Source: Thermoanaerobaculia bacterium
GTDB taxonomy: Bacteria > Acidobacteriota > Thermoanaerobaculia > Multivoradales > JAIOJS01
DNA: 34,938 nucleotides
Direction: 5' to 3'
Assembly: GCA_019911795.1 (NCBI GenBank)
Contig: JAIOJS010000183.1
Location: forward strand, 1-34,938
In this document: positions 20,564-28,851 of the stretch, piece by piece
Layout: every line of letters starts with the position of its first letter
How positions within the stretch are numbered: the stretch's first letter is position 1
Position numbers and translations under genes: made by a program
Notes under the pieces: generated by a model
Told to the model about the DNA's origin: nothing
The model's input: only the letters and a program-made list of their open reading frames with translations
The model's database searches: none

Positions 20564-22123
20564 TCAGGGCGGCGACTCGAGCAACGGCTTCTCCGACAGG
20601 TAGATGAGGAGGGTACCCGGCACCACCTGGTGGCTCTTGGGCGGGTTGATGATCTCCTTACCGGACGGTGAACGCAGCCCGATGACCAAGCCACCTCGCT
20701 GAGTCAGCTGCATCTTGACGAGGAGATCGCCGAACCTCACCGGCTCGCTCGGCGCGTCCGGAATCTCACCCAAGTAGACATTGTGCGCCCCCGAGATCAG
20801 GACCCGGCTCATGGTGAGCGCGGTGCCGTGAAAGCCGACGGCATGGGCGATCATCGAATAGCCGATCTTGCGGGTCTCGATAACCTCGTCCGCCCCCGCG
20901 GAGCTGGCGTGCCCGACGTTCTCGGCGTCCAGGATCTCGGCCACCAAGTAAAGCGGGCGAAACCGTTGACGAACCTTCTTGCCATGCCGTCGCAAGTAGG
21001 AGCGGATCGTAAAGGTGATCAAGATGGTCCTGGCATCGGCGGCCTGCGGGCTCATGTCTCGGGCTCCGGACACGATCACCGCCGCGGCGTGGGTCAGTCG
21101 AACCTTGTCGAGTTCGCTCTCCTTGGTCGGATCACCTTGCACCCAAAGGTAGAGCGGCGGCAGGTCCCGAGGCCGCTCGTGGTCGTCGAAGACAACCACA
21201 CGGGTTTCCGTGGGATCGACCTCCTTCTCCAACGCGGTCAACAGGAGGGCGGTGCTCTCATCGTGGCCACAGACCACCACGTGGTTTACGTAGTCGCTCA
21301 TTCGAAATTGCTCCTCACGGATGCTCAACATACCTCGCACCAGGCTGGTCCCCACGACTCCCGCGAACAGGGCCAAGGACAACATGCCGGCCATCATCAG
21401 GACACCGCCGATAATGCGGCCCAGGAATGTCACGGGAGTGATGTCACCGTAGCCTACCGTGGTTACGGTGACGAGCGCCCACCACATGCCGTCGACGACC
21501 GACCCGATGTCCGGATTGGTCTTGATCTCGACGAAATAGAAACTGACGCCGCCGAGCAGGGTCGCCAATCCGAACACGCTGAAGGCAAAGGCGAAGAGAA
21601 GGCCGTTCTCTTCCAGCGCGTGAATCACGATGGCAAACGGATTGTGATATCTGAAAACCTTGCTGGTACGTAAGAGCCGTAGCAGACGTAGAGCCCGTAG
21701 GCCGCGTAGCCCCGGAAACAGGGCGAGGACGGCCAGCATGTCCACCAACTGGAGGGGACGTAGGGCAAAGCTCAGACGGGCCATAAAATGTTCGCGCAAT
21801 CGCCGGATTCGAGCCCGCCGGAAGACCTCGAGGGACGGGGGCCGGTAGGTCACGATCCGTATCACGATCTCCACGGCGAACACCTTCAGCAGGATACGGT
21901 CGATCCATCCCACGATCGGGATGGCGCTGCTGCCATCGGGCAGGAGGGCCTCGACTGCGAGGGACACGATGGACAGGACGATAAGGGTCCAAACCGAACC
22001 CTGAACGATGCGATAGATCCGCGTTCGGGGCTCGTGGAAGGCCGCGTGCAGGTGGGCGAGCAATCGAGTCACGATCTCCATCATACGTCCCCAGCTCACT
22101 CGGAGCCCTGGCGCCCGAGCCAT
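20564..22123 (-). CDS. Voltage-gated-type potassium channel with cytosolic RCK (TrkA-N/TrkA-C) domain
   Basis: S4-like RGLRALRLLRLLRTSKVFRYHN, selectivity filter TVTTVGYGDITP, then HVVVCGHDESTALLLTALEKE Rossmann start. The start may be internal at MMEIVTRL (22084). Confidence 0.9.
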   Translation of the reverse strand: MARAPGLRVSWGRMMEIVTRLLAHLHAAFHEPRTRIYRIVQGSVWTLIVLSIVSLAVEALLPDGSSAIPIVGWIDRILLKVFAVEIVIRIVTYRPPSLEVFRRARIRRLREHFMARLSFALRPLQLVDMLAVLALFPGLRGLRALRLLRLLRTSKVFRYHNPFAIVIHALEENGLLFAFAFSVFGLATLLGGVSFYFVEIKTNPDIGSVVDGMWWALVTVTTVGYGDITPVTFLGRIIGGVLMMAGMLSLALFAGVVGTSLVRGMLSIREEQFRMSDYVNHVVVCGHDESTALLLTALEKEVDPTETRVVVFDDHERPRDLPPLYLWVQGDPTKESELDKVRLTHAAAVIVSGARDMSPQAADARTILITFTIRSYLRRHGKKVRQRFRPLYLVAEILDAENVGHASSAGADEVIETRKIGYSMIAHAVGFHGTALTMSRVLISGAHNVYLGEIPDAPSEPVRFGDLLVKMQLTQRGGLVIGLRSPSGKEIINPPKSHQVVPGTLLIYLSEKPLLESPP

Positions 22124-22370: not shown

Positions 22371-23807
22371 TCAACGTGACGTGGTCGATGGGGACCGTTT
22401 CGAGATTCGGTAGTGTTCCTTGCGCAGCCCGTAGGACCGCATCTTGTTGTAGAGAGTACGGGGGTTGACTCCAGCCACCTCGGCAACCTCGTCCACCCGC
22501 CCGCGATAGCTCTGCAGCAGGCGGTGGAGGTAGTCCCGTTCGAAGGCTTCGACCACCCTTTGGCGCGCCTCCGCGAGCGGTGTGTTGGTAAGTCCTGGCG
22601 ATGGGAGAACTGTGTGGCCCGCGGCAAGTTCTCGTTGAGCGGGGATTTGGTGCAGGAGATCGGTGGCCTCGATTCGGTCTCCTTCGGCCAGCAAGACGCC
22701 CCGCTCGACTGCATTGATGAGCTCTCTTACATTGCCTGGCCAGAGATGTTGCTCCAACGCGTGCAGGCTCTCCTCCGAGAACCCATCGAGGCGCGGTCGA
22801 CCGAGACGATTCTTGAAGTGATCAAGATAGGCGCTGACCAGCGGCCTCACGTCCTCACGGCGTTCGCGGAGGGGAGGGATCTGCAGCATGACAACGCTCA
22901 ATCGGTAGAAGAGGTCACGACGAAACTCCCCTCGGTCCAAGGCACCGTGCAGGTCCTGGTTGGTCGCAGCGATGATCCGGACATCGAGCGGTACTGGGCG
23001 TTCCGCTCCGAGTCTCTGAATCTCACGTTCTTGCAACGCGCGCAGGAGTTTGGCCTGAAGGTGGATGGGCATGTCTCCGACTTCATCGAGAAACAGCGTG
23101 CCGCGATGGGCTAGTTCGAATGCCCCGCGTCGAGCACGAACTGCTCCCGTGAAAGCCCCCGCCTCATGGCCGAACAGTTCGGACTCCATAAGCGACTCAG
23201 GGACGGCCGCGCAGTTGACTGCGACGAAGGGGCCAGCGGACCGCGGGCTCTGATCGTGAACCCTACGAGCGAGCCATTCCTTGCCCACACCCGTCTCGCC
23301 GAGAATCAGGAGGGTAGTGTCGGCGGCGGCAACACGGGTGGCAAGGTCCAGCAGTCTTTGCATTGCAGGGCTCTTGGTTGCCCCCTCCAGAATCGAAACG
23401 CGATCCTCCTGGGTCGCCCGAAATCGAGATAGAGCGAGTTCCCGGAAGCGCCGCAGCACCGTTCGCAGGCTTGCTTCCCAGCCCTCGGGTTCGAGGTCCG
23501 AGTGAAGCACCGCGAAGGCTCCGGCGGCGTGCAGCAATACTCGATCCTGAGGTCGGTCTCCATCGACGATGCCAACGACCTCGGTTTGCTCGGGAGAGGA
23601 GCGAACTCTCGGAAGGGTCGATCTCCAAGGATCAGGAAGATCGGCTGCCGTGACAACGAGCAGATCAAAGCCCCCCTGTTCGAGCTGTTCCCAGAGGGAC
23701 TCGTCGAGTCGACCCTCCGTCACGTGAGTTCCAGCCTTCTTGATCCCCCGAGAGACACGATCACGCAGTGCTTTCGGCTCGATCCACACTAGGGCTCTGA
23801 GCAGCAT
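22371..23807 (-). CDS. Sigma54-dependent enhancer-binding protein (NtrC family) with degenerate receiver-like N-terminus and Fis-type HTH
   Basis: [16 protein letters not shown] (Walker A), [15 protein letters not shown] (sigma54 contact), [10 protein letters not shown] (Walker B), WPGNVREL, C-term [34 protein letters not shown]. Confidence 0.95.
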
Positions 23808-23819
23808 CGCGAGCCTCCT

Positions 23820-23885
23820 TTTCGGTAATTCTATACCGAAATATCAGTCTCGCAATACCGATAATGCGGCACTCTAATACCGATA
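23820..23885. promoter_or_regulatory. Three contiguous 22-bp operator-like units (TTTCGGTA-N6-TACCGAAA family)
   Basis: TTTCGGTAATTCTATACCGAAA (perfect 8-bp inverted repeat), TATCAGTCTCGCAATACCGATA, ATGCGGCACTCTAATACCGATA; ATACCGA recurs at 23833, 23855 and 23877. Confidence 0.8.
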
Positions 23886-23933: not shown

Positions 23934-23949
23934 TGGCACTCTCTTTGCT
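23934..23949 (+). promoter_or_regulatory. Sigma54 (-24/-12) promoter
   Basis: TGGCACTCTCTTTGCT matches TGGCAC-N5-TTGCW exactly; GG-N10-GC at 23935/23947. Confidence 0.8.
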
Positions 23950-24066
23950 GTAGTGGTTTATCAGGGCAGCCTCATGCTGTCCCATCAATTCGCACCTCCG
24001 GGCGACGATGGTGCGAGAGAGACAAACAGCCCGGCAAAGTCACTCGAACTCGAAGGAGTTTCGAGA

Positions 24067-24717
24067 GTGGAGTTGAAGAAAATGACCAATACATCCAAGA
24101 TTGCGTTGACGACCGTTGCAACCCTGGGGTTCGTTCTGTCAGGTTGTGCCAAGGCCCCGCAGGAAGAGATTTTGAAGAGCGAGTCAGCCCTCGAGTCCGC
24201 TCGCGGAGCGGACGCGGAGGAGTGGGCTGGCGAAGAATGGCAGCAGGCCGTCAACGCAAAAGCAGCACTCGACGAGGAACTGGCAACCCAGTCCGGCAAG
24301 ATGGGCATCATGCGGCGATACGACCGCACCAACGAGCTCGTAACCGAGGCGAACACCGCCGCCGCCGCCGCTCGTGAAGCTGCTCTCACCAACAAAGAGA
24401 CCGCTCGCGCCGAGGCGGCCGCTTCGATCGAGGTCGTGCAAGAGGTCCTCGCGACGGGCGACGATCTGGTAGAGCAGCTGACCGCTTGCCCAAAGAAGCC
24501 GAAGGGCTTCGAAGCTGACATGGTGATCATCACGGGGAATCTCACGGCTCTGCGCGGTGAGTTCACTAAGGTCCAGAGCCTGTTCGAAGCCGGGAGTTAC
24601 TCCGCCAGCATCGAAGAGGGCCACGCTCTAGTGGAGCAGATCGAAACCCTGACGGCCGACCTCGAAGGAGCGATGGAAAAGATCGGTTGTGAGCCAACCC
24701 AGGTTTCGACCATCTGA
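24067..24717 (+). CDS. Alpha-helical lipoprotein (DUF4398-like)
   Basis: Lipobox TTVATLGFVLSGC; Ala/Glu-rich helical body. GTG 24067 has RBS AAGGAG; ATG 24082 is an alternative start. Confidence 0.85.
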   Translation: MELKKMTNTSKIALTTVATLGFVLSGCAKAPQEEILKSESALESARGADAEEWAGEEWQQAVNAKAALDEELATQSGKMGIMRRYDRTNELVTEANTAAAAAREAALTNKETARAEAAASIEVVQEVLATGDDLVEQLTACPKKPKGFEADMVIITGNLTALRGEFTKVQSLFEAGSYSASIEEGHALVEQIETLTADLEGAMEKIGCEPTQVSTI

Positions 24718-24817
24718 CTGGGCGCGCAGTTCTGGCCAGGCCTTCAGAAGGATCCTGGCGCAACGGTACTAGGAAGAGTCGGTCACCAGGATTCGTGACT
24801 TGACTCGAGTGATCGAG

Positions 24818-24856
24818 CGGGCTCGGGCCGTCCCGAGCCCGTATTTCTGTTTCTTC
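24818..24856 (+). terminator. Intrinsic terminator between lipoprotein and L,D-transpeptidase genes
   Basis: CGGGCTCGGG-CCGT-CCCGAGCCCG perfect 10-bp stem followed by TATTTCTGTTTCTT. Confidence 0.8.
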
Positions 24857-24870
24857 ACTGCGGGCCGCCG

Positions 24871-25929
24871 ATGCTCTCCAACTCATCAACCACACTAGGG
24901 CTTCCCACTCTACTGACGTTCTGTTGGCTGACCCTTGCCGGCTGTGATCAGCGTCCCGTCGGCAATACGATGGCCTTCGACGCCACAGTTGTTCGAGTCT
25001 TGGATCAGCTCGAGGCACCGGACCTTCGCCAGCGCCTCGAAGGGTCCTGGCGCGAAGTCCAGCTCGCCGAAGCCGCCAGCCGGGGGCGTTGGCGACCTGA
25101 TCCGAAGGTCGAGGTTCTCTGGGCCTCGACGATGGCGGAGGCACGAGCCTGCTGGCTCGAAGGGGAACGACGACACCATCAGCTTCAGGAGGAGTGGTCC
25201 CAAGCGCGTCAACGTGCCGAGGATCTGCGCGCGCGGGCGGCGGGGCTCGGGCCCGACGTCTTGGAGGCTTCGTTCGTTTCCCTACAGAGATCGGCTGACA
25301 TCGCTTGGAACCGCGCGCTTCGCCGCCTGAGTGCCGACGATCTAGTGGGTGCCATTCAGGCCGCGGATGAGACCACGGTGAGTCTGGAACAGCTCGTCGC
25401 CGTGTGGGAATCGTCGAACTCGCGATTCTTCCGTTCCGACCTGAGACGTCATTGGGCCGGCATAGAGCAGTTGGCAATGGAGGACTCCCGTCGGGCCGGC
25501 GCGGCGCTGGTCGTCGACAAATATCAGCGGCGCCTTCACGTTTGGGAAGATGGAAAGAAGACCGGTAGCTACGCCATAGAACTGGGCCAACGCGGCCTCG
25601 AACGGAAGCTGGTCGCTGGCGACCGCGCAACCCCCGAAGGCAGGTATCGAGTCTCTGCGGTCAAGGGAGAAGGTAATACTCGCTACTTCCGGGCCCTCCT
25701 CTTGGACTACCCGAACGATGAGGATCGACAACGCCTGGCCGCCGCCGTTCGCAGTGGGATCGTTCCGCTGGGTTCATCGGCCGGAAGCCTCATCGAGATT
25801 CATGGTCATGGCGGCCGTGGCATGGACTGGACCGACGGGTGCATCGCCTTGAGTGACCAGGATATGGAGGCCCTCTGGTCAGTCGCGGCGGAGGGGCTTT
25901 CCGTCTCCATTGTGGGAGTACTTCCTTGA
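24871..25929 (+). CDS. L,D-transpeptidase (YkuD) lipoprotein
   Basis: Lipobox FCWLTLAGC; C-terminal IEIHGHGGRGMDWTDGCIALSDQDMEALW. Confidence 0.9.
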   Translation: MLSNSSTTLGLPTLLTFCWLTLAGCDQRPVGNTMAFDATVVRVLDQLEAPDLRQRLEGSWREVQLAEAASRGRWRPDPKVEVLWASTMAEARACWLEGERRHHQLQEEWSQARQRAEDLRARAAGLGPDVLEASFVSLQRSADIAWNRALRRLSADDLVGAIQAADETTVSLEQLVAVWESSNSRFFRSDLRRHWAGIEQLAMEDSRRAGAALVVDKYQRRLHVWEDGKKTGSYAIELGQRGLERKLVAGDRATPEGRYRVSAVKGEGNTRYFRALLLDYPNDEDRQRLAAAVRSGIVPLGSSAGSLIEIHGHGGRGMDWTDGCIALSDQDMEALWSVAAEGLSVSIVGVLP

Positions 25930-26627
25930 TACAAGTCGAAGATGGTCTCCTGAAGTCTCCGATCCCCGCCTCGGAGGTCGCTGTGTCCAGGCGCCGTGGC
26001 TGGGCCCTGGTTGTCGGCACTCTTACGTTGGGCTTACTGCTACTTCTCGTCTTCGGCTTGTGGGTTGCAGATCCGGGACTGGTGTACTTGGACACCGGGT
26101 TCATCGCCAACCCTGGAATCTCGGAGAGCGGCCAGACGGAGGGCGAAGCGCGAGCGAGCCGAGAACTCGAGTCTCTGGCTCCCCGGGGACGATTCGTCGT
26201 CATCGACAGCTTCGGAGGGACGCTAAGTGTCTACCAGGGCGAAGACCTCTTGCGCCAAGCAGTTAGCTCTGCGGGAAGCGGTTCTGCGTTGAGAGACCCC
26301 CGCAACGGAAAGTTCTGGGTCTTCGAGACTCCGATCGGCGAACATCGAGTGCAGCGGAAGGCGCGAGATCCAGTTTGGAACAAACCGGACTGGGCCTTCG
26401 TCGAAGAAGGCAGAGTTCCTCCCCCACTAGGCCATCCCGAGAGAGCAGATCGGATCTCTCTGGGCGACTATGCGCTGTACCTCGGGGACGGCTATCTCAT
26501 TCACGGCACTCTGTTTCAAACGACCCTCGGAAATCGCGTGACGCACGGCTGTGTTCGTCTCGGAGACCAGGATCTGGAGTGGCTCTTCAACAACGTTCCA
26601 GTGGGGAGTCGAGTATGGATCTACTAG
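25926..26627 (+). CDS. L,D-transpeptidase (YkuD), membrane anchored
   Basis: TM LVVGTLTLGLLLLLVFGLWVA; YLIHGTLFQTTLGNRVTHGCVRLGDQDLEWLF. TTG start overlaps the upstream stop; GTG 25982 is an alternative. Confidence 0.9.
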   Translation: MIQVEDGLLKSPIPASEVAVSRRRGWALVVGTLTLGLLLLLVFGLWVADPGLVYLDTGFIANPGISESGQTEGEARASRELESLAPRGRFVVIDSFGGTLSVYQGEDLLRQAVSSAGSGSALRDPRNGKFWVFETPIGEHRVQRKARDPVWNKPDWAFVEEGRVPPPLGHPERADRISLGDYALYLGDGYLIHGTLFQTTLGNRVTHGCVRLGDQDLEWLFNNVPVGSRVWIY

Positions 26628-27364
26628 AGAGCCATCAGGCGCGACTGGATCCGCCAAGTAGGAGGACTCCGGATCCGGACTCTGGCCCGCAGTCCCCCCG
26701 TCCATCCAGGGCCTTCCGTGGCCGTGGCGGACTCTGCCTATGGGTCCTAGTGATCGCTAGCCTCTGCACCAGGAGTGTTGGGGAGGCTCGACCGACCGAC
26801 GTACGATCCAACCTGTCGGCAACCGAGATCGAGTTGCAAGTCGCCCAAGCGGCTTTCCCGTACCTGGTTCTCGATCTGGCATCGAATACGATGGCGATCC
26901 GCATGAAGGGCCGGACGCTCGAGGTCATTCCCCTGCAGGGCCATCGATTGCTGAGAGCCGGTCGGCTAACGGCAACCCGGCAGCCCCTCGAGTTGCCAGC
27001 CCTCTGGCACGTGATCAAGCGCCCCCCCTCTCGACGCAAGGTGACCGCCCCTGCGACCCTGAGCGCGACGGAGAACCCCTTGGACCCACCACCGGCGGCC
27101 GCTGGGGAGACCCCACCACCCCCTGACGTCTACGACTTCGAGACCCATCAAGGTTGGACGGTCGAGATTGGCCGCGAGTTAATCGAACCCACCCGAGTTC
27201 AACTCTGGCGCCAGGCTCTGACGGATGGCTGGGCGACACGACGCGGCAAGATTCGCTCGCGGCCCGATCGACTGGTACTAGAGATGTCGCCCGAGTCGGC
27301 CACCCGACTCCACCATCTAATCCGTCCCGACATACCGATTCTGATCCTAGCCACGGCCCCTTGA
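26615..27364 (+). CDS. Exported/membrane-anchored companion protein of the L,D-transpeptidase operon, unknown function
   Basis: ATG 26615 overlaps the LDT stop; hydrophobic segment GLCLWVLVIASLCTRSVGEA; FPYLVLDLASNTMAIRMKGRTLEVIPLQGHRLL. Confidence 0.8.
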   Translation: MDLLESHQARLDPPSRRTPDPDSGPQSPRPSRAFRGRGGLCLWVLVIASLCTRSVGEARPTDVRSNLSATEIELQVAQAAFPYLVLDLASNTMAIRMKGRTLEVIPLQGHRLLRAGRLTATRQPLELPALWHVIKRPPSRRKVTAPATLSATENPLDPPPAAAGETPPPPDVYDFETHQGWTVEIGRELIEPTRVQLWRQALTDGWATRRGKIRSRPDRLVLEMSPESATRLHHLIRPDIPILILATAP

Positions 27365-27563: not shown

Positions 27564-28229
27564 ATGATGAGAACCCGGTGTCACACGAACTCCGTTTGTC
27601 GGGACCTCTTGGTGGGAGTGGTTCTTCTGTCGCTGGCCGGGACGGCCTTTGGATCGGGTCGTGGCGGCGACCTCGTGGCGGAACCGTTCGACCACGAACT
27701 GTCCCGGGCTTCCCCGTCCCCCACATCTCCGGAGAGCGAACCCGTCGTCCAAGGCACTACCCCCCTGACGTCCTTCCGACTTGCCGGCTCGGCTTTCAAG
27801 CCCCGCGCGACCGATGTCACCGCAACCACCAACTCCAACGGCTCCTGCGCCTACGCTGCGGCGGGCAATGCGAGCACAGTCTGGAACGTCTCTCCGAACC
27901 TGCCGCAGGGTGCGATTGTCGACACTCTGCGGATCTACTACAACGACACGTCGGCTAGCAACTCCACCGCCTGGTTCACTGTCTACGACCTCTACGGCTC
28001 AATCGCTCAGGAGTGGCCCGTCAGCTCGAACACCAGCGGCGGAAACAGCTTCAACGACAGCGCTCAGATCAATCACACTGTCGACTACGGCGTCTACTCG
28101 TACCTGGTCAACTGGCGCCCCGCCGTCTCGGGCAGCACGATGCAACTGTGCGGAGTCCGGCTGTTCTACGTCGCACCCACGCTCTTCAGTGATGGATTCG
28201 AGTCCGGCAACACGTCGGCCTGGAACTGA
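27564..28229 (+). CDS. Secreted protein (paralog A) ending in LFSDGFESGNTSAWN
   Basis: RBS GCAGGAGAG; signal peptide; FRLAGSAFKPRATDVTATTNSNGSCAYAAAGNASTVWN...LRIYYNDTSASNSTAWFTVYD. Confidence 0.85.
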   Translation: MMRTRCHTNSVCRDLLVGVVLLSLAGTAFGSGRGGDLVAEPFDHELSRASPSPTSPESEPVVQGTTPLTSFRLAGSAFKPRATDVTATTNSNGSCAYAAAGNASTVWNVSPNLPQGAIVDTLRIYYNDTSASNSTAWFTVYDLYGSIAQEWPVSSNTSGGNSFNDSAQINHTVDYGVYSYLVNWRPAVSGSTMQLCGVRLFYVAPTLFSDGFESGNTSAWN

Positions 28230-28266
28230 GTTCCACTGGAACTTCGCCCCCTTGGAGGAATCGACC

Positions 28267-28851
28267 ATGAGAGAGATCAACAATCGGCTGTATGGCCTCG
28301 CCAGCGCGGTCGCCGCGCTGTGGCTTCTGACCGCCTGGCCGCTGGCGGCGCAGTCCTCCCTAGACGCTGGATCCTCGGAAGGAGAGGGTGAGACAGCGCC
28401 CGGCCCGAGTCAAGAGGACTCGGCGGTTCTCGGGAGCCTGGTGAACTTCAGGGTCGCCGGGTCCGCTCTGAGACCCCGTGAAACCAATGTCACTACAGCG
28501 GTCGATGGTGGTGGGGGTTGTGCCTATGTCGGTGGCGGCAATGCCTCCACCGTCTGGAACACACCGGTGTACCTACCTCAGGGAGCGACGGTGGATACCT
28601 TGAGAATGTACTACTACGACACCAGCGCTTCGAATACGACGGCCTGGTTCACGGTGTACGACCTCTACGGCGCGATCGTGCAAGAGTGGCCCGTCACGTC
28701 CAGCGGCAGTGCCGGAAATGGCCTTGCCGATAGCGTCCAGATCAATCATACGATCGACTACAACGTGAACTCGTACATGATCAACTGGCGCCCCCTCGTC
28801 GCGGGTAGCACCCTACAACTCTGCGGCTTCCGCATTTTCTATACCCAGTGA
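28267..28851 (+). CDS. Secreted protein (paralog B) without the C-terminal DGFESG motif
   Basis: Extensive similarity to 27564-28229 (FRVAGSALRPRETNVTTAVDGGGGCAYVGGGNASTVWN...LRMYYYDTSASNTTAWFTVYDLYGAIVQEWPV). Confidence 0.85.
   Translation: MREINNRLYGLASAVAALWLLTAWPLAAQSSLDAGSSEGEGETAPGPSQEDSAVLGSLVNFRVAGSALRPRETNVTTAVDGGGGCAYVGGGNASTVWNTPVYLPQGATVDTLRMYYYDTSASNTTAWFTVYDLYGAIVQEWPVTSSGSAGNGLADSVQINHTIDYNVNSYMINWRPLVAGSTLQLCGFRIFYTQ

Follow-up and report, generated by a model that had tools for sequence, protein, structure and literature searches.

A dedicated sigma54 unit very probably controls the lipoprotein operon in the window (the whole stretch of 34,938 nucleotides that was analysed): to judge from the sequence, an activator (bEBP) acting on tandem repeats would drive the operon headed by the lipoprotein gene lip from a -24/-12 promoter at 23934-23949. 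The sequence-based support comprises the motif itself, its geometry, its conservation and its co-occurrence with the bEBP, and it is the comparison with related loci that lifts the motif match to the level of a well-supported regulatory unit. The three central features are as follows.

23934-23949, plus strand: sigma54 -24/-12 promoter TGGCACTCTCTTTGCT, the sole exact match within the window.
24067-24717, plus strand: lipoprotein gene lip, with lipobox LSGC and mature Cys27.
22371-23807, minus strand: sigma54 activator (bEBP) of 478 aa (PF00158, 1.5e-69; HTH_8, PF02954, 4.9e-8).

In TGGCACTCTCTTTGCT, the TGGCAC and TTGC elements are present with the correct GG-N10-GC spacing, and the description of the promoter as consensus-perfect in an earlier note on this DNA is correct for the 11 scored positions. 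In -24 elements, G is frequent directly after TGGCAC; here the base is T. The promoter sits between the divergent bEBP gene and the lipoprotein gene, and its surroundings agree with what that note had described. It is on the strand divergent from the bEBP; it lies 50 bp downstream of the last operator, whose end is at 23883 (about 50 bp had been given); and lip starts 118 bp downstream if translated from GTG 24067, or 133 bp downstream from ATG 24082 (about 120 bp had been given). The GTG, whose ribosome site AAGGAG, the best found, lies 8 nt upstream, is probably the start, with the ATG as the alternative. From the position of the -24/-12 element, transcription is predicted to begin at about 23959-23960. 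Activator (PF00158, GAFTGA, HTH_8), enhancer-like sites, -24/-12 element and target are contiguous, as had been claimed, in an arrangement that is conserved and co-varies with the activator: distant relatives with the activator share it, and those lacking the activator do not.

The bEBP displays a degenerate receiver (residues 1 to about 125), an AAA+ domain with lid, and a C-terminal HTH of the Fis type; Walker A (GETGVGKE) and GAFTGA are intact. Its N-terminus is receiver-like, as PF00072 is matched weakly in 12 of 15 subfamily members and PDB receivers are matched down to 4e-7. The phospho-accepting Asp, however, is replaced in all but one of the 15, by Thr in the window's protein, which lacks the conserved receiver Lys as well; both residues expected of an NtrC-type phosphorylated response regulator are thus missing from it. 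Since a receiver without a phospho-acceptor makes classical histidine kinase input unlikely, the sequence suggests that this bEBP is probably controlled by a ligand, a partner protein or its own concentration; no kinase gene was recognised adjoining it. Identity with NorR was rejected at 330.6 bits, below the NCBIfam equivalog cut-off of 476, and identity with PspF at 263.6 bits against a cut-off of 443.55 and in view of the N-terminal domain. An AlphaFold2 model of the full protein was set aside (pLDDT 43, two input sequences), and the bEBP tree was too poorly resolved to separate an ancestral from a captured linkage to lip. Behind the bEBP gene, at 20564-22123 on the minus strand, a potassium-channel-like protein with an RCK domain is encoded. 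Together with the MscS channel and SLC12-like permease that related bEBPs apparently control in loci L103 and L106, this neighbour hints at an osmotic or ionic theme.

The region between the bEBP gene and the promoter contains the following sites.

23822-23839, no strand: operator 1 TCGGTAATTCTATACCGA (TCRG-N10-CYGA), whose geometry recurs in all but one of 13 related intergenic regions.
23844-23861, no strand: operator 2 TCAGTCTCGCAATACCGA, an inverted-repeat match.
23866-23883, no strand: operator 3, its left half degenerate (GCGGCACTCTAATACCGA), 22 bp from operator 2.
23828-23855, minus strand: possible sigma70 promoter of the bEBP gene (TTGCGA-16-TAGAAT), from a consensus scan.

The triple operator of the earlier note is real as a 22-bp array: TACCGA occurs at 23834, 23856 and 23878 in exact 22-bp phase, and such an array is found once in the whole genome. 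The unit is better described, however, as an inverted repeat with the consensus WTCRG-N10-CYGAW, present in two full copies and a third, degenerate one, 22 bp apart. Upstream of the -24 element, the conserved repeats are in helical phase and begin at distances of 112 bp (operator 1) and 90 bp, and 14 bp separate operator 1 from the start codon of the bEBP; enhancers are usually found about 100-150 bp upstream of their promoter (PMC7057263). Operators 1 and 2 overlap the only sigma70-like site that the scan found for the bEBP gene, and with the operators 14-75 bp upstream of its start codon and over this site, autorepression is likely.

Between subfamily bEBPs and their divergent -24/-12 elements, the N10 spacing recurs at 14 sites in 12 of 13 intergenic regions, whereas in 500 shuffles of these regions no spacing from 5 to 25 rose above 3; owing to relatedness within the set (L078/L103/L106; L102/L104; L080/L108), the independent cases number roughly nine. 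The operator alone shows no enrichment in the window, with 4 matches against 6 expected, and only tandem copies near a -24/-12 element are informative. An operator common to the subfamily makes the targets of its members predictable from sequence, and these vary: a mechanosensitive channel with an SLC12-like permease, a PLP enzyme/DUF1611/creatininase set, an arginine decarboxylase, and lip with its L,D-transpeptidases. In L102, L104 and L105, the bEBP is divergent, with a -24/-12 element, to an operon for a PLP enzyme, a DUF1611 protein and a creatininase-domain protein (Pfam assignments from L104), which is an uncharacterised pathway. No clear -24/-12 element adjoins the subfamily bEBPs of L107, L109, L111 and L113.

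Such diversity, and the presence of two promoters in genus g48, could mean that the bEBP is a broad regulator with lip as one of many targets in its genome. We consider this improbable, since of the 24 TGGCAYN5TTGC sites in the assembly, which is 94% complete, the window's is the only one with tandem operators; a second site (L138) shows a single N11 operator match. Tandem operators at one site in 24 point to a local, dedicated activator.

Genus g48 is informative as to which protein acts on the lip promoter. In its loci L108 and L114, the bEBP gene is convergent and lies at the opposite end of the lip operon, so that adjacency does not explain the lip promoter there. This promoter (TGGCGCGGACCTTGCG / TGGCGCGGAGCTTGCG) is preceded by TCGGAGGATTATCTTCCGA, TCAGTAATTCCACCTCCGA and TCGGAGGTTATCCGTCTGA, operators with N11 spacing, the variant seen also where this bEBP has its own divergent promoter (L080 and L108). 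In principle, the operators could serve another regulator, and the genome offers many candidate activators or receivers (62 at first look). That a real promoter answers mainly to a different bEBP or to a separate repeat-binding regulator is nevertheless very unlikely, because the operator is common to regions beside the bEBP subfamily regardless of the target gene, and because the g48 lip promoter carries the lineage-specific N11 variant of its bEBP. A third conserved -24/-12 element in g48, TGGCATCRCTCTTGCT (L108, 6624-6639, plus strand; L080, 664-679, plus strand), precedes the start of a secreted-type ORF on the bEBP strand.

The exact pattern TGGCAC-N5-TTGCW occurs once in the 35-kb window against 0.02 expected from dinucleotide shuffles; with two mismatches tolerated, 19 matches are found where 10.6 are expected. 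The whole genome, in which rpoN is encoded (PF04552, 1.3e-63), has 11 exact matches compared with 5 in a reversed control, and about half of them may therefore be noise. As a lone match has a signal-to-noise ratio of only about 2:1, we placed the weight on position and conservation.

The gene family of lip was found by profile search in 37 of the 152 genomes of the class. We classed 30 lip loci by the bEBP subfamily of their genome (N-terminal-domain profile, E below 1e-16) and counted promoters by the strict pattern TGGC[AG][CT]-N5-TTGC. A strict -24/-12 element lies upstream of lip in five of five loci with the subfamily and in none of 25 without it (one-sided Fisher 7e-6, with loci treated as independent despite shared ancestry). 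Most of the loci without the bEBP have sigma70-like -10 hexamers instead; loci lacking the bEBP provide natural controls, with the same operon apparently sigma70-driven. A search of genome contigs for related loci gave one relative only, the Acidobacteria MAG HKST-UBA06, whose locus L041 and L027 are apparently one and the same. Like the window's, the bEBP genes of L027 and L032 are divergent from lip, with TGGCACGACGGTTGCT and TGGCATTGAGTTTGCC in between. G001, a 100% complete genome of the same genus, is without all three of lip, ld2 and the bEBP subfamily. Weak sigma70-like matches are also present upstream of the window's lip, and TATAAT-like hexamers are found at about -120 to -150 in family f9 and other lip loci; even so, a chance -24/-12 match with a sigma70-type promoter driving lip, as in most relatives, is hardly credible, given that the exact match falls in the one intergenic region expected and has same-place counterparts upstream of lip in four other genomes, every one with the bEBP.

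The lipoprotein named as target in the earlier note is indeed downstream, but this account was incomplete, as lip heads a conserved operon, lip-YkuD-YkuD-orf4, whose order lip-ld1-ld2 is kept in nearly all examined loci. The two YkuD products are enzymes of the type that cross-links the cell wall.

24817-24842, plus strand: strong intrinsic terminator between lip and ld1.
24871-25929, plus strand: ld1, L,D-transpeptidase-family protein (YkuD; PF03734, 2.4e-15), conserved beside lip.
25926-26627, plus strand: ld2, second L,D-transpeptidase-family protein (YkuD; PF03734, 6.1e-18), with a THGCVRL motif.
26615-27364, plus strand: orf4, fourth operon gene; in related loci its matches lie at the end of ld2 or beyond it.

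A comparable terminator hairpin follows lip in 9 of 14 loci, an indication that more of the lip product is made than of the enzymes; no Rfam families were found in the window. The lip product has a signal peptide and the lipobox LSGC, whose Cys27 is invariant in 10 sequences. It has no match in Pfam or NCBIfam. Its AF2 model is helical (pLDDT 79), and a Foldseek search with this model gave no significant match, only helical bundles. Beside the lipobox Cys, Cys141 and Cys208 (GTG numbering) are invariant, the latter near the C-terminus, within KIKC in most family members; a disulfide between the two could possibly close the helical bundle. Farther downstream, at 27564-28851, two consecutive ORFs represent a tandem duplication, their secreted-protein sequences (VDTLRIYYNDTSASNSTAWFTVYDLYG and close variants) being near-repeats of one another.

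Taken together, a dedicated unit would work as follows. The bEBP would bind the tandem TCRG-N10-CYGA inverted repeats, its AAA+ ring would assemble there, and by looping it would contact RNA polymerase-sigma54 at 23934-23949 and open the complex. Transcription of lip would begin at about 23960, and read-through past the terminator would reach the two L,D-transpeptidase genes and orf4; the bEBP would probably also repress its own gene. The unit offers a concrete, testable member of a sigma54 regulon in Acidobacteriota, and it agrees with the published view that sigma54 tends toward control of the bacterial exterior (PMC3162934). There is also a wider reading, though we regard it as doubtful: a subfamily of Acidobacteriota bEBPs with dead receivers and a fixed operator (WTCRG-N10-CYGAW) may form a portable cassette that moves between operons (lip-Ldt; MscS with SLC12-like permease; PLP enzyme/DUF1611/creatininase; arginine decarboxylase), with sigma54 replacing sigma70 and, in the present case, a Braun-like lipoprotein-transpeptidase system tying the outer membrane to the wall under stress.

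The unit is of an ordinary kind, with a bEBP gene divergent from a sigma54 promoter; its bEBP subfamily, operator and lipoprotein family look undescribed. Our literature search found no paper describing the activator, the operator or the operon, and nothing relevant on sigma54 bEBPs in Acidobacteria or on RpoN with transpeptidases. The gene order of NorR-norVW is divergent, as is that of the window's unit. In E. coli, this system has three enhancer sites upstream of the sigma54 target promoter, which scaffold an oligomer (PMC2941729); the window likewise combines a bEBP with three upstream enhancer-like sites. Unlike NorR, which has a GAF domain and senses NO, the window's bEBP has a degenerate receiver, different operators and an envelope operon as its target. 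PspF-pspABCDE of E. coli likewise pairs a divergent bEBP with a sigma54 operon, there for envelope stress, with enhancers in between, where the window has its enhancer-like sites. PspF lacks an N-terminal domain, and PspA inhibits it (PMC7057263), whereas the window's bEBP has such a domain and no PspA-like gene was recognised in the lip operon. The order of receiver, AAA+ and Fis-type HTH is that of the NtrC1/NtrC type, and the alignment with 4l4u, of the NtrC family, spans almost the whole length; unlike in that type, the phospho-accepting Asp is missing in 14 of the 15 subfamily members. On the target side, the closest parallel is the Braun lipoprotein system of E. coli, a helical lipoprotein with YkuD enzymes. 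Like it, the operon pairs the helical lip with YkuD enzymes that could tie lip to peptidoglycan; in contrast to Lpp, lip has about 190 aa in its mature form, no sequence match, and in most family members no C-terminal Lys. From their partnership in the operon, we hypothesise that lip becomes linked to peptidoglycan by the transpeptidases, in the manner of the Braun lipoprotein.
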